DNA of 64,000 nucleotides from assembly GCA_937884755.1 (NCBI GenBank), contig CAKZYJ010000494.1:1-64000 (forward strand), written 5' to 3'. Positions 6,213 through 64,000 of this stretch are shown here, one piece after another. Origin of the DNA: an uncultured Flammeovirgaceae bacterium. Lineage in GTDB: Bacteria > Bacteroidota > Bacteroidia > Cytophagales > Cyclobacteriaceae. The position numbers and the translations under genes are program-made. Numbering within the stretch: the first letter of the stretch is position 1; the number at the start of each line of letters is the position of its first letter. The notes below the pieces were generated by a model. It saw nothing but the letters and a program-made list of their open reading frames with translations. It was not told the origin of the DNA and did not search any database.

Positions 6213-9200
6213 TTGTTGAAAGAAAATATTAAAAATTTACATATGAGAAGCTCCCCTCCATCTCTGTACGACTCTACCTTTGAGCACGATGCCTGCGGAA
6301 TCGGATTTGTCGCTCATTTGCAGGGTAAGAAATCGCACAGTATAGTTGACGATGCTATCATCATGCTTCAGAATATGGAGCATCGGGGCGCCTGTGGTTG
6401 TGAGCCGGATACGGGCGACGGAGCAGGTATTTTAGTACAGAAGCCTCATCGCTTCTTTCAGGAAAAAGCTGAATTCGATATTCCGAATTTTGATCAGTAT
6501 GGAGTAGCGATGATTTTCTTTCCGGCCAATGGCGCTCAGCGCGAGGAGTGTCGCAAGCATTTCGACCGAATTATCGATGAATTAGGATTGGAGCTGATCG
6601 GCTACCGTTCGGTACCTACCAATAATCAGAGTCTGGGTCGTTCGGCTAAATTAGTGGAACACCGTATTGAGCAAGCTTTTATCCGCTGGAAAGAAGTTCC
6701 TTCGGCTGATCCGATGGCTTTGGAAAGAAGGCTATACGTACTCAAGAATTACGCTTCGCACACTATCCACCGGAAAGTAGCCGATACGGAAGACACCTTC
6801 TACATTGCCTCCTGCTCTTACAAAACCATCGTGTATAAAGGGCAGCTTACCACTTTCCAGTTGCGTCCCTACTACCTGGATTTACAACACCCTTCCTTCG
6901 ACACGGCCCTGGCTCTGGTGCATTCCCGCTTCTCTACCAATACGTTTCCGAAGTGGAAACTGGCTCAGCCCTTTCGGTTTATCGCCCATAATGGTGAGAT
7001 CAACACTATCCGGGGAAATGTAAACTGGATGCGGTCTAAGGAAGCTCTGCTGAAATCTACCTTGTTTACTGATGAAGAGTTAGAAAAACTGATGCCCATT
7101 TGTAATTCGGCTTTCTCTGACTCAGCTAACCTGGATTTGGCGGTACAACTGCTACACATGGGCGGACGCTCGCTGCCCCACGTGATGATGATGCTGATAC
7201 CGGAAGCCTGGCAAGATAACGACCTGATGGGCGATCCGAAGAAAGCTTTCTACGAGTACTATGCTTCCATGATGGAACCCTGGGATGGCCCGGCTTCTAT
7301 TTGCTTTACCGATGGTGAATTGGTAGGGGCCACGCTCGACCGTAACGGACTACGCCCATCCCGCTACCTGCTCACCGAAGATGATAAACTAATTATGTCT
7401 TCGGAAGCCGGAGCTTTACCAGTTGATGAGTCCAAAGTAACCTTGAAGGGACGGCTGAAGCCCGGCCGAATGTTTGTAGCCGACTTATCCGAAGGCCGTA
7501 TTATCAGTGACCAGGAAATTAAAGAAAGAATCTGCTCGGAGAAGCCCTACCGTGACTGGCTGAATGAGCATCAGTACTTCTTAGATGAGTTGCCGGAACC
7601 ACTCCATGTAAACGGACAGGATACGCATTCTTCCGACCAACTTCCTTTGCTAACCCGGCAACTAGCGATGGGGTTCACTACTGAAGATTTGAAGGTGATT
7701 TTGGCTCCCATGGTAGATAAATCAAAAGAACCAATCGGTTCTATGGGAGCGGATACTCCGTTGGCCGCCCTTTCCAGTCAAAGCCAGCATATTGCTAACT
7801 ACTTCAAGCAGCTTTTTGCCCAGGTCAGTAACCCGCCTATTGATCCCATTCGAGAAAAACTGGTGATGTCGCTGTTCACTAGCCTGGGAAGCACCAAGAA
7901 CATCCTGAACGAAACACCCGAGCACTGCCAGCAAATTAAACTGAAGCAGCCGGTTCTCACTAACGAACAGCTTAAACGCATTAAGTATCTACAGCATCCG
8001 GCGTTCACTGTACAGGTACTAAAGGCGGTATTCCCAGCTACTGGCGAAACCGGAGCATTAGAGCAGGCGATGGAAAAGCTGTCCACCGAAGCCGAACAAG
8101 CAGTATGTAACGGAGCAAATATTTTAGTCATTTCTGACCGAGCATTCAACGAAGATCAGGCACCTATTCCTTCTCTGATGGCAACTGGAGCTGTACATCA
8201 CCACCTCATTCGTAGTGGGTTGCGGGCCAAGACCAGTCTGGTAGTAGAAGCGGGTGATGTACGTGAAACGCATCATTTAGCTACGCTAATCGGCTACGGT
8301 GCCCACGCTATCAACCCCTACCTGGCATTTGCCAGCATCGCCGACTTGCAGCAACGCGGCCTGATCCATAACGACAAACCGCTCGAGAAACTGAACAAAC
8401 GTTTTATTAAAGCGGTAAATGCTGGATTGCTAAAGATTTTCTCTAAAATGGGAATCTCTACTATCCAGTCGTACCACGGAGCGCAAAGCTTTGAAGCTTT
8501 GGGTATTAGTCAGTTCGTAATAGATAAGTGCTTTGCCGGTACGGTGACCCGTATTGGTGGGGTGGAATTTGATGACCTGGCGGAAGAGGTCCTGGTGCGC
8601 CACCGCTTGGCGTTCCCTCAGGAGGCACTGGAAACCACCAGGCTGGAAGTCGGTGGTGTCTACCAATGGAAGCGCCGGGGTGAATATCATATGCTGAACC
8701 CACAAACCATTCATCTACTTCAGCAGGCTACCCGAAAAAATGATTACAAACTATATAAGCAGTACGCCGAAATCATCAATCAGCGTTCGGGACAACTGGC
8801 TACACTCCGGGGGTTAATGCAATTTAAAAAGCGAAACTCCATTCCACTGGGGGAGGTAGAATCTAAAGAAAGCATCTTCAAGCGCTTTGCGACTGGAGCG
8901 ATGTCGTTCGGTTCGCTATCGCACGAGGCTCATTCTACTTTGGCCATTGCTATGAATCGGATTGGCGGCAAAAGCAATAGCGGCGAAGGAGGAGAAGATG
9001 AAATTCGCTTTGAACGCAAGCCCAACGGCGATTGGGAGCGATCTGCCATCAAACAAGTGGCTTCGGGGCGTTTTGGGGTTACTAGTAACTACTTAACGAA
9101 TGCCAACGAGCTTCAAATTAAAATGGCGCAGGGAGCCAAGCCCGGCGAGGGTGGACAATTGCCTGGCCATAAGGTAGACGACTGGATTGGACGGGTGCGA

Positions 9201-10778
9201 AACGCTACTCCCGGAGTAGGACTGATCTCTCCCCCGCCCCACCACGACATTTACTCTATCGAAGATTTAGCCCAGTTGATCTACGACCTGAAGAACGCCA
9301 ATCGCGAAGCGCGGATCAATGTAAAGCTGGTAGCCTCAGCCGGAGTCGGTACTATTGCAGCCGGGGTAGCTAAAGCTCACGCCGATGTAGTACTTATCTC
9401 TGGTCACGACGGTGGAACAGGAGCATCACCTTTGAGTTCAGTACGCCACGCCGGAGTTGCCTGGGAACTAGGTCTGTCCGAAACCCATCAAACCCTGGTA
9501 AAGAATAATCTGCGCAGCCGCATTACAGTGCAGACTGACGGTCAGATTAAGACCGGACGCGATATTGCTATTGCTATTTTGCTGGGTGCTGAGGAATTTG
9601 GAGTTTCTACCGCCGCGCTAGTCACCGAAGGCTGCATCATGATGCGCAAGTGCCATTTGAATACCTGTCCGGTAGGCGTAGCTACGCAAGATCCCGAGCT
9701 ACGAGCGCTGTTTAGCGGAAAACCAGAGCATGTTATCAACCTGTTTACCTTCCTGGCCGAAGATCTACGGGAAATTATGGCTGAGTTAGGCTTCCGTACT
9801 GTAAACGAGATGATTGGGCAGGTAGACGTACTGGAGAAGCGCGACGATGTGAACCACTGGAAAGCCAAGAAAATTGACCTATCCCGAATTCTTTACAAGC
9901 CGGAAACCAGGCCCAACGTAGGTATCTACAAGCAACAGGAGCAAGATCACGGCATTGATGAGGTACTGGATTGGGATTTGATTGAGGCCGCTCTGCCCGC
10001 GTTGGAAGAATTAGAACCGGTGAAGAATGATTTTCGCCTAATCAATACTAACCGTTCGGTAGGGACCATGCTCTCTAATGAGGTTTCCAAGAAGTTCGGT
10101 AGCCCGGGGTTACCCCCCGGCACCATTCATTTTACCTTTAAAGGCTCGGCCGGACAAAGCTTTGCGGCCTTTACTACTAAGGGTATCCGGTTTGAACTGG
10201 AAGGTGAAGCCAACGATTATTTTGGCAAAGGTTTATCGGGCAGCGAGCTGATCATATACCCTCACCGTGAGTCAAAGTACGTACCCGAAGAAAACATGAT
10301 TATCGGTAACGTAGCCTTCTATGGGGCCACTTCTGGCGAAGCCTACATCCGAGGTCAGGCTGGTGAACGCTTCTGCGTTCGCAACTCCGGGGTGAAGGCT
10401 GTGGTAGAAGGTATTGGCGACCATGGTTGCGAGTACATGACTGGCGGTACGGTAGTGGTACTAGGCCGAACCGGCCGAAACTTTGGTGCGGGTATGAGTG
10501 GCGGTATGGCGTTTGTCTACGACGATGAACAACGCTTTCCGGCCTACTGTAACCATGAACAGGTTGACCTGGAAACAATGACTGATGAAGACGAGAATAC
10601 GGTGGTATCTATGCTTCAAAAACACGCTGAGTACACGGGTAGTATGGTGGCTCAGCGCATGCTAACAAACTGGGCACTAAGCCGTAATCACTTCATAAAA
10701 GTAATGCCGCGTGAATACAAGGCCGCTCTCGAGAAGCGACGGGCACAACAGGAGAATAAAACACAAGTAAAAGTATAA
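6213..10778 (+). CDS. gltB: Glutamate synthase large subunit (start possibly 6243)
   Basis: 1521 aa; [15 protein letters not shown] (N-terminal nucleophile Cys), [65 protein letters not shown]. Confidence 0.97.
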   Translation: [1521 protein letters not shown]

Positions 10779-60966: not shown

Positions 60967-61893
60967 ATGAAACAATTACTCCTTTACTTGTCCTTTTTAG
61001 TTGGATTTCAGATTAGTGGGCACGCTCAGTCAGCGTATGAATTACCGCAATCAGTGAAGAAGATATTGTTTCTGGGGAATAGTATTACGTGGAGTGGCGA
61101 ATACGTGGACTTCGTAGAGACTTACTTCAGGGCGGTTAAGCCCGAGCATTCGCTGGAATTTATCAATGCGGGCCTGCCTAGCGAAACGGTATCCGGTTTA
61201 TCCGAACCCAACCATGCCGACGGTAAGTTTCCGCGCCCCGATTTACACGAACGTTTATCACGGGTACTAACAGCGATAAAGCCCGATCTGGTGATTGCCG
61301 GCTACGGTATGAACGATGGGATATATCTACCGTTTGATGAGGACCGATTTAGCAAATTCAAAGAGGGCATCGTCTGGCTTCATAATGAGGTTGTAAAGCA
61401 AGGTATTGCTATCATCCACGCAACGCCCCCCGTATTTGACGAGCGAAAAGGAGCGGCCTACGCCAACGTGCTGGACATTTACTCAGACTGGCTAATTAGC
61501 AAACGATACACCGCCAACTGGAACGTGATTGATATCCACTGGCCCATGCGAAAATACCTGGAAGGCAGACGGCTTACTGATGCTGCTTTTACCCTGGCCG
61601 AGGATGGAATCCACCCTGGCACTACCGGTCACTGGCTGATGGCTAAAGAGGTATTATTGTATCTGGGAGAGCAAGAGGTAGCCTCAGCCGATAGCATTGA
61701 GGAAGCGCTATCGTCTTTCCAAAACGTCGATAAGCTATTGCGGCTGGTAAGCGAACGTCAGGAAATTCTAAGGAACGCCTGGTTAACTCACACCGGCCAC
61801 CAACGACCCGGCTTACCAGCGGGGATACCCATCTCTGAAGCCAAGGAAAAGGCGGAAGCGATTGATCAAGAAATTTCTGAGTTAGCGCAGTGA
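60967..61893 (+). CDS. SGNH/GDSL hydrolase, secreted
   Basis: ILFLGNSITWSGEYVDFVETYF, LVIAGYGMNDGIY, LAEDGIHPGTTGHWLMAKEVL. Confidence 0.92.
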   Translation: MKQLLLYLSFLVGFQISGHAQSAYELPQSVKKILFLGNSITWSGEYVDFVETYFRAVKPEHSLEFINAGLPSETVSGLSEPNHADGKFPRPDLHERLSRVLTAIKPDLVIAGYGMNDGIYLPFDEDRFSKFKEGIVWLHNEVVKQGIAIIHATPPVFDERKGAAYANVLDIYSDWLISKRYTANWNVIDIHWPMRKYLEGRRLTDAAFTLAEDGIHPGTTGHWLMAKEVLLYLGEQEVASADSIEEALSSFQNVDKLLRLVSERQEILRNAWLTHTGHQRPGLPAGIPISEAKEKAEAIDQEISELAQ

Positions 61894-62135
61894 TAAAATG
61901 CAAAGTAGTGCTTAGCATTAGCAAAATAATTCGCCTTGTCGATATCCAATCGGTAGGTAAATCAACCGTTGAAAAAGCCGCTCAATCCGAGTTTAAGGAT
62001 TTTGAAGATGCCCTACAAAACTACTGTGCCGAAGAAGCCAAAGTGTCTACCATAGTCACCCGAAACGTGAAGGATTACAATAAAAGCAATTTATCAATTC
62101 TAACACCATCTGAGTTGCTTGCAGTGGTTGCTTAG
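61890..62135 (+). pseudogene. PIN-domain toxin-like remnant, N-terminally truncated
   Basis: VEKAAQSEFKDFEDALQNYCAEEAKVSTIVTRNVKDYNKSNLSILTPSELLAVV matches the C-terminal half of PIN domains (FKDFEDALQ, ITRNxKDF); the N-terminal D-x-N half is absent. GTG start overlaps the SGNH stop. Confidence 0.7.
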
Positions 62136-62453
62136 CCGCGAAAGTTACACCACATCTCTTTGGTGAATAGAAAAACCTTCTCCAGGTAAAATTTCCAATA
62201 CTCCCAAATGTGTAAGATTGAGCGAGGCCAAAGGATTCTACAGCAGAACCTTGGTTGAAGGTTAGCCAAACCGAGAAGTTCATATTCTTTGTAAAAAGTG
62301 TTAGATTCTTTATTAGAGTTTGTATATTAAACCATGTAGTCATTAGTGGTTATTACACCTGAATAATATCGGCTTAGAAAAATAGTATTACCGATAGAAA
62401 AAATAACGGAGATATTGCAATTATCAATTTGTTAGTGGCAAGTGATAAATTAA

Positions 62454-63725
62454 ATGAATAATTCAGTACATAAAAGAGACTTTGACATATTTCTTAGTTA
62501 TGCAAGTGAAGACAGACACATTGCCGACAATATAGATAACTGGTTATCTGAATTCGCAGGCTTCCAAGTTTGGTATGCACCAAGAGAATTAAGTGGAGGC
62601 TCATTACTTGCCACCGATCTTCAAAAGGCGATTTCTCGTTCTAGAGGAATAATCATCATCGCTACCCAAAACTCTGTAGACAAAGGGTGGGTTAAGAACG
62701 AATACAATTCTGCGATGGATGAAAAAAGTAATCATCCTGATTTTAGAGTAGTTATACTTAGATTCGGCACGTCATCGCCTGACAATATTATGAAAGGAAT
62801 GACTTGGATTAATATTGAACAAGAAAAATTATCACCGGATAATGCAATTTCCATAATCAAATCATTTTATCCTGGAGAGAAAAGACCTAATCCAAGTAAT
62901 TCAAAAGACATTTATATAAGTTGTTCTTGGAGAGCAAATGATAACAGAAGTGCCATATCTGTAATGATGCAATTAGATAAAATAGGTTTTCGACTCATTG
63001 GAGATTCTGAGGATCAACAGAAATTTGGCGAAGGGAATAGAGTTGAAAGAATCATGTCAAGCTGTGGTGCATTTGTTTGTATCATTCCTTTCCGAAATAA
63101 TCAAGAAGCCAATGATGGAGAAAGGCCATATAAATACTTTCTGAAAGAAATAGATTATGCTAACCAGTTACAAATTCCAACTTTAATAATCTCTGATCCA
63201 AAAATCATTTCGGTCAATGGGCAAAAGAATCAGTGGCTTCAGTTAGATACAAATGCTCATGAAATTAGTGATGAGATAAAAATAGAAATTGAAAACTTGA
63301 TGGATGAATGGCGTAAACCACCAAATCCACAATATATATTTTGTGCTTTAGACTTGGATAATGAAGCAAAAAATGCCACAAATTATTTCCGACACTTAAT
63401 TGAAAGGATAACAGGCATGGTCACAATTATTGGTACAGATATTTCTGATGAACCGATACAATTATCCATTATTCAGTCCATACAAAATTCATTTTTAACA
63501 GTAGCTGATATTTCGGACGACAATCTTAATACTTGCATAGAAGCAGGAATAGCAATTTCTTCAAAGGCTAATGTTGAACTTATTTCAAAAGGGGAACCTA
63601 GAAGACCACCATTCATGCTAAGATCTTTGCAACTAATTACTTTTGAAGATGATATCGAGAAAGTAGGTAGAATTCACAAAATTGTATTTCCGTACAGACG
63701 AAGAATAATAAATGCTGAACTCTAA
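62454..63725 (+). CDS. Three-domain protein: N-terminal TIR, central TIR-like, C-terminal nucleoside deoxyribosyltransferase-like domain
   Basis: DFDIFLSYASEDRHIADNIDNWL...VWYAPRELSGGSLLATDLQKAISRSRGIIIIATQNSVDKGWVKNEYNSAM; then KDIYISCSWRANDNRSAISVMMQLDKIGFRLIGD...PYKYFLKEIDYANQLQIPTLII; then IIQSIQNSFLTVADISDDNLNTCIEAGIAISS...PFMLRSLQLITFEDD. Confidence 0.82.
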   Translation: MNNSVHKRDFDIFLSYASEDRHIADNIDNWLSEFAGFQVWYAPRELSGGSLLATDLQKAISRSRGIIIIATQNSVDKGWVKNEYNSAMDEKSNHPDFRVVILRFGTSSPDNIMKGMTWINIEQEKLSPDNAISIIKSFYPGEKRPNPSNSKDIYISCSWRANDNRSAISVMMQLDKIGFRLIGDSEDQQKFGEGNRVERIMSSCGAFVCIIPFRNNQEANDGERPYKYFLKEIDYANQLQIPTLIISDPKIISVNGQKNQWLQLDTNAHEISDEIKIEIENLMDEWRKPPNPQYIFCALDLDNEAKNATNYFRHLIERITGMVTIIGTDISDEPIQLSIIQSIQNSFLTVADISDDNLNTCIEAGIAISSKANVELISKGEPRRPPFMLRSLQLITFEDDIEKVGRIHKIVFPYRRRIINAEL

Positions 63726-63854
63726 ATATCTGTCATTTACACTAGATATGACGGCATACCTCGAATGGTCGCATATTATTATCCGTCAGAAACAGAAAAA
63801 AGGACAAGTCCCAATGAACTTACCCTTTCGTTTATAAATACTCTAACAATTACA

Positions 63855-64000
63855 TCAACCCATATTAATATCCCGTTGGGCGAAGGGCTGATCGTACAAA
63901 CGGGAACCCGTCGCCTCATACAACGCGTTGGCTAAGGCGCCCATTACCGGTGGTAAGGAAGGCTCGCCCAGTCCGGTAGGATCAATGCCGTTCTCTACGA
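63855..64000 (-). CDS. Molybdopterin-binding xanthine dehydrogenase/isoquinoline 1-oxidoreductase large subunit, C-terminal fragment (window edge)
   Basis: Minus-strand reading [47 protein letters not shown], typical of molybdopterin-subunit C-termini (GEPSLPP..ANAxxxATGxRL). Confidence 0.82.

Follow-up and report, generated by a model that had tools for sequence, protein, structure and literature searches.

An open reading frame of 423 codons near the end of the window (the whole stretch of DNA analysed here, the first 64,000 nucleotides of the 83.6-kb contig C494) encodes three Rossmann-type units in succession. The first is clearly a TIR domain, the second is TIR-like but diverged, and the third is a DRHyd domain. 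On balance we think that this gene, which is present as a single copy in its 8.35-Mb draft genome, encodes an immune-type enzyme that occurs sporadically, belongs to the TIR-DRHyd-SLOG class and is predicted to attack NAD+. In antiviral systems, TIR, DrHyd and SLOG domains are one class whose role is to produce, use up or detect NAD+/ADPR signals (PMC9503650). The most economical reading, we infer, is that of an NAD+-cleaving TIR protein in which units 2 and 3 would mediate oligomerisation, form another active site, or recognise or process nucleotides. An anti-phage role for the protein appears fairly likely. The coordinates of the gene, its units and the neighbouring features are collected in Table 1.

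Table 1. The three-unit gene, its surroundings and the genes preceding the Verrucomicrobiaceae copy. Positions refer to the window unless another record is named.
Feature	Position	Strand	Detail or basis
Whole gene, TIR - TIR-like - DRHyd protein	62454..63725	+	423 aa, ATG start, no internal stop
Unit 1, TIR domain, predicted NAD+ glycohydrolase/cyclase	62454..62873	+	residues 1-140; TIR_2 PF13676
Unit 2, diverged TIR-like domain	62892..63317	+	residues 147-288; hhalign, model
Unit 3, DRHyd (nucleoside deoxyribosyltransferase / DNPH1-like)	63315..63722	+	residues 288-423; AD...NTCIExGIA motif; hhalign
PIN-domain gene, C-terminal remnant, neighbour	61890..62135	+	PF13470 positions 66-115 of 115 only, E 1.1e-6
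Dispersed repeat	62280..62433	+	ends 20 bp before the start codon; self-comparison
Duplicated 3' fragment, start, molybdenum-hydroxylase-type gene	63796..64000, on to ~64080 of contig	-	self-comparison
MntA-type nucleotidyltransferase, 96 aa	contig 72936-73226 (L021 11937-12227), beyond window		PADLOC PDC-S09, E 3.9e-27
Truncated HepT-like gene	contig 73344-73598 (L021 12345-12599), beyond window		profile positions 85-118 of 120 match
Verrucomicrobiaceae locus, first gene of apparent four-gene operon	L058 5135-6433		
Verrucomicrobiaceae locus, membrane protein	L058 6435-8486		weak alpha/beta-hydrolase match
Verrucomicrobiaceae locus, RyR-domain protein	L058 8483-9970		PF02026 E 9e-33; four predicted TM segments, sub-threshold SLATT matches

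The initial annotation had proposed an N-terminal TIR domain with a plausible catalytic Glu in WVKNE, and this was borne out. TIR_2 (PF13676) matches residues 12-124 with an E-value of 4.4e-20 and 72.8 bits, against a curated cut-off of 28, and a profile of the eight unit 1 sequences of the family (the window copy and the seven homologues described below) matches AbTir at 1.2e-13 and the 7uxr TIR at 6.3e-14. In the alignment with AbTir, E83 (GWVKNEY) falls on the Glu of the WxxxE helix (WTNYE), and it is kept in all eight. NAD+-processing bacterial TIRs, AbTir for example, are among the closest solved TIRs by sequence, and the ThsB_TIR match to the protein stays under the Pfam cut-off. That this TIR cleaves NAD+ is likely. 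The protein resembles the stand-alone TIR NADases and cyclases (AbTir, 7uxr TIR) in that its TIR aligns over ~90 residues with the same catalytic-Glu helix, and differs from them in the TIR-like and DRHyd units that follow.

Taken by themselves, units 2 and 3 match nothing in Pfam and have no NCBIfam or PADLOC assignment of their own, PADLOC models matching unit 1 alone. The C-terminal segment had been described as deoxyribosyltransferase-like, and comparison of unit 3 with other DRHyd proteins agrees with that description (hhalign 98%, E 1.3e-13; the control comparison of unit 3 with TIR gave only 19%). Those DRHyd proteins, with the window protein left out, match DNPH1/Rcl in the PDB at E 1.2e-5 with their conserved Glu on YELG, and E363 of unit 3 stands at the position of this 'YELG' Glu. 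Their alignment, which was assembled from weak unit 3 matches in Bacteroidota, has AD, N, N, E, G and PF invariant. The PF05014 cut-off is passed by one DRHyd relative (L020) but not by unit 3 itself, which lies below every sequence cut-off. Compared with DNPH1/Rcl and nucleoside 2-deoxyribosyltransferases, whose match to the relatives of unit 3 centres on the YELG Glu, unit 3 has NTCIEAG where DNPH1/Rcl has NxxYELG. It is the most conserved of the three units, with A351, D352, N359, T360, C361, I362, E363, G365, I366 and A367 invariant in 8/8. These profile comparisons place unit 3 in the DRHyd superfamily. That it is an active hydrolase we can propose only tentatively, and an equally tentative case can be made for a ligand sensor.

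Unit 2, which the initial annotation had called a second TIR-related segment, aligns with the family's own TIR (unit 1) profile (hhalign 60%, E 8.4e-5); since YKYFLKEIDYA is paired with GWVKNEYNSA, E232 meets E83, and the spacing Y228-x3-E232 equals the W79-x3-E83 spacing of unit 1. Against an independent TIR profile the comparison gave 24%, with the Glu out of register. In the best homologue there is a TIR_2 match to unit 2 at E 0.0057, the predicted model shows an alpha/beta pattern for this unit, and the control comparison with the DRHyd profile gave only 5%. S156, G183, D184, R196, C204, P212, R214, Y228 and E232 are invariant in the eight-row alignment. We can therefore call unit 2 TIR-like with moderate confidence: its likeness to unit 1 and its invariant Glu support the earlier proposal, but the weak agreement with independent TIRs leaves the TIR identity itself at that level.

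Each unit has one Glu that is invariant in all eight rows of the family alignment, E83, E232 and E363. By alignment, E83 and E363 occupy the known catalytic positions of their superfamilies, and E232 is probably at the catalytic position of unit 2. This conservation bears on the possibility that units 2 and 3 are non-catalytic pseudo-enzymes which bind a nucleotide and gate the TIR, making the protein a one-piece sensor-effector of the sort proposed in the initial annotation. Such an arrangement would suit a gene that is solitary both in the window genome and in Ulvibacter, the strong divergence of unit 2 from TIRs, and the view that some domains of the class are sensors (PMC9503650). Against it, units 2 and 3 both keep their Glu in 8/8 sequences at ~30% identity, together with the full AD...NTCIExGIA motif, and unit 3 is the best conserved unit. 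A conserved binding site could also account for this pattern. We consider the pseudo-enzyme arrangement somewhat unlikely.

AlphaFold, run with the eight-row family alignment, returned a model with pLDDT 78.3 and pTM 0.80; from the single sequence, without the alignment, the values were 35.5 and 0.25. In the former model strands and helices alternate in all three units, and the domain borders proposed at the outset (1-140, 145-280 and 290-423) agree with it. A Foldseek search of the whole model against the PDB and viral models was uninformative, giving mostly low-TM matches of double-Rossmann and sugar-isomerase type; we gave no weight to the TIR and deoxyribosyltransferase entries among them. 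Wrong folds or the lack of a conserved Glu, which would speak against the three-domain reading, were looked for and neither was found, the TIR fold of unit 2 being only moderately supported.

Single-protein queries of genome contigs, viral contigs, plasmids and phages found no relative beyond the TIR domain. Relatives were retrieved with a three-row alignment built from domain 3, with which ~85,000 species genomes were scanned. This gave at least seven full-length homologues from Bacteroidota, Planctomycetota, Verrucomicrobiota and a deltaproteobacterium. The carriers among the matches listed are Ulvibacter antarcticus, two Prevotellaceae, one Bacteroidales bacterium, the deltaproteobacterium, Planctomicrobium and a Verrucomicrobiaceae bacterium; identity among these matches is mostly 27-34%, with Ulvibacter antarcticus at 71%. 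All seven have the units in the same order and nearly the same length. Copies beyond these seven surely exist. When ~570 genomes of three other groups were scanned with a profile of units 2 and 3, no additional copy emerged, and a protein query found none in ~1,100 genome scans within the phylum of the window genome. A broader alignment yielded a pattern with 221 matches and no confirmed relative among them, and one match, to a sensor protein of two-component type (L027), proved spurious when its sequence was read. The family is rare and its distribution sporadic. In a tree, the Verrucomicrobiaceae, deltaproteobacterial and Planctomicrobium copies form one branch. Separately, a Blastocatellia protein (L060 3941-5179, in a partly masked record) has a TIR fused straight to a DRHyd-type domain, with the middle unit absent.

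Between the window copy and that of Ulvibacter dN is 0.22 and synonymous sites are saturated, which indicates that the protein has been maintained under purifying selection. DNA similarity with the Ulvibacter locus is limited to the gene, the flanks being unshared. The sporadic spread, and 71% identity to Ulvibacter without common flanks, would fit horizontal transfer.

The gene had been noted as AT-rich, and rightly so: its GC content is 34.1% against 45.4% for the window, a value equally low in 4 of 207 sliding windows of gene size. The PIN remnant reported upstream was also found, as the C-terminal end of a PF13470 domain. Just before the start codon lies a dispersed repeat of ~150-200 bp, which occurs mostly 5' of single genes; further copies on the contig (~66347-66514 and 70707-70898) are each immediately upstream of a gene, and the sister genome has it too (copy listed at L092 8440-8670). 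In some copies ATAACGGCAATATCTCCGTTA and its reverse complement form a long inverted repeat. The dispersed repeat may be mobile, or else serve as a cassette-type recombination site; its identification as a known RNA was dropped, as there was no Rfam match. Downstream, 63831-64080 is 86% identical to 77006-77255 of the contig; this duplicated 3' end is found on either side of a variable interval. The full downstream gene (contig 77030-79225) we take, from reading its sequence, to be of molybdenum-hydroxylase type, and its duplicated fragment, judged by this self-comparison, marks a rearranged border. In the genome of a sister species (G003) the same interval, from an SGNH hydrolase to the molybdenum-hydroxylase-type gene, has other genes and no family gene. 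The interval is a variable region with toxin-antitoxin debris (PIN, MntA/HepT), not a proven defence island. No known defence partner was found in the window or in contig 64-81 kb; in keeping with the initial annotation, ThsA-type, CD-NTase and SAVED genes are absent from the ORFs read around the gene, including those of the ~17 kb of contig beyond the window (64-81 kb).

This setting also bears on whether the protein serves immunity at all, or is instead a housekeeping or stress enzyme of NAD+/nucleotide salvage. Several copies do lie amid housekeeping genes. Against a salvage enzyme stand the extremely sporadic distribution, the lack of the gene in the corresponding interval of a sister species, its AT-richness and its place in a variable interval, and the presence of a TIR and a DRHyd domain on one chain, which is the style of conflict proteins; we regard it as very improbable. 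It had been suggested that the neighbourhoods of homologues be inspected for defence islands. Neighbours of the Ulvibacter and Bacteroidales copies are mostly housekeeping genes, and the enrichment is therefore weak; the local interval has only toxin-antitoxin remnants, and PADLOC recognises nothing but the TIR. Just 5' of one Prevotellaceae copy (L056 337-3700) we observed a transglutaminase-kinase-TIR gene with a stop within the TIR, followed by a small TIR reading frame.

We compared the protein with described systems. ThsB-type TIR models weakly match unit 1, and the signal-plus-receptor logic of Thoeris (ThsB TIR plus ThsA-type effector) is possible in the branch with RyR neighbours; unlike Thoeris, the locus (window end and contig 64-81 kb) has no ThsA-type gene and the chain has three units. 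The protein differs from the TIR effectors of CBASS and Pycsar in having no SAVED/STING-type sensor domain, and its locus has no cyclase partner, the nearest nucleotidyltransferase being the 96-aa MntA type. Swarozyc is a diverged DUF4062 TIR-like NADase with an auxiliary domain and anti-phage activity (PMC13174449). The window protein likewise joins a TIR-like NADase (as predicted here) to auxiliary domains, but its TIR is of another branch, its auxiliary domains are others and it has no DUF4062 match; the deltaproteobacterial copy alone has a gene nearby whose start, by our reading, is like DUF4062. Units 1 and 3 are members of the TIR-DRHyd-SLOG class and unit 2 resembles it, and the three-unit chain is not described in the portion of PMC9503650 available. 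A paper on tandem TIRs was rejected as a precedent because it concerns amoeba proteins of a different kind. By sequence, then, the protein belongs to a known class but in a new form: none of the described systems compared has this chain, and the features of Thoeris, CBASS and Swarozyc that were looked for are lacking.

Genes with a RyR domain adjoin the family gene in two of the eight copies (the matches listed plus the window copy). At the Verrucomicrobiaceae copy four genes run in the same direction with gaps of 1, -4 and 30 bp, the family gene being last and preceded by a gene for a RyR and 4-TM protein that ends 30 bp 5' of it. At the deltaproteobacterial copy (L054) the upstream genes encode an AAA protein that ends in a RyR domain and a SAM-TIR protein, and the downstream gene a large WD40 protein, the one whose start resembles DUF4062. 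The Planctomicrobium carrier has a related AAA-RyR gene (28% identity), located on a different contig. RyR genes are present in 5/8 carrier genomes and absent from the other three; in Verrucomicrobiota a RyR gene passes the cut-off in 2 of 96 genomes, one of the two being the carrier. Of the five carriers with RyR genes, the genome of L055 has one beside an unrelated TIR gene. In Bacteroidales (L079, minus strand) a 98-aa stand-alone RyR gene and a TIR-transmembrane gene (7807-8103 and 8103-9260) form a TIR-RyR pair with the RyR second. Both 2'cADPR and 3'cADPR are ligands of phage RyR proteins, one of which also cleaves them (PMC13232231); this makes a pair of TIR signal and RyR receptor plausible in the Verrucomicrobiaceae copy. 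These phage proteins (RyDEP) share PF02026 with the neighbours at L054 and L058 but serve phage counter-defence, whereas the L054 and L058 genes are bacterial and fused to AAA or transmembrane segments. In the window genome the sole RyR gene (116 aa; L078 6068-6418, on contig C330 of G000) lies in a prophage among phage structural-type neighbours; we therefore rejected a RyR pairing for the window gene in its own genome, and the prophage gene is a candidate TIR-signal sponge.

The proposal that the protein is a self-contained, single-gene effector is only partly supported: the gene is solitary in the window genome and in Ulvibacter, but in the Verrucomicrobiaceae/deltaproteobacterial branch RyR, TIR and membrane-protein neighbours suggest a diffusible signal with a separate receptor, at least there. 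The protein might instead be a signal maker only, a ThsB-like half whose TIR units produce a cyclic ADPR isomer, with unit 3 limiting this signal by hydrolysis and a separate receptor (RyR, or an unlinked SLOG/macro protein) responding to it. The RyR and 4-TM gene in the apparent operon, the AAA-RyR gene upstream of the deltaproteobacterial copy and its counterpart in Planctomicrobium, and the binding of 2'/3'cADPR by phage RyR domains (PMC13232231) all favour this; that RyR genes lie near only 2/8 copies, that three carrier genomes have none, and that the only one in the window genome is in a prophage on another contig tell against it, and we judge it somewhat unlikely. More specifically, that the family makes the signal in a Thoeris-like system not recognised so far, with a cyclic ADPR isomer, bacterial RyR membrane/AAA receptors and a DRHyd unit that tunes or ends the signal, seems to us decidedly doubtful. 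With so small a sample, and an association that was observed rather than predicted beforehand, the RyR neighbours are a strong lead, no more.

In the scheme that we infer, which covers the NAD+ chemistry, the trigger, the abortive outcome, and the RyR pairing in one branch with its absence in Bacteroidota, the NAD+-cleaving protein would oligomerise via its TIR units upon infection. Unit 1 would then split NAD+ into nicotinamide and ADP-ribose or a cyclic ADP-ribose isomer, and this splitting would lead to a growth stop of the infected cells (abortive infection). Unit 2 may supply either a further TIR active site, possibly a composite one, or an oligomer interface, and unit 3 would act on, or be gated by, an N-glycosidic nucleotide, which might be NAD+ itself, a derivative of ADPR or a deoxynucleotide that arises in infection. 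In the Verrucomicrobiaceae/deltaproteobacterial branch a RyR-domain partner would probably read the product, in one case a RyR and 4-TM membrane protein; in the Bacteroidota branch, the window included, the protein would probably act through NAD+ loss with no partner, or else together with one encoded at an unlinked site.

A single chain here combines branches of the Rossmann class that handles NAD+ and nucleotides, so that production, sensing and removal of an immune signal could all fall to one protein. The response of animal ryanodine receptors to cADPR has long been debated. The RyR neighbours in one branch connect bacterial TIR signals directly, and in a way that can be tested, with the domain type of these receptors and, if the family does prove to be the signal-making half of such a system, it would provide a bacterial counterpart of cADPR-ryanodine-receptor signalling.
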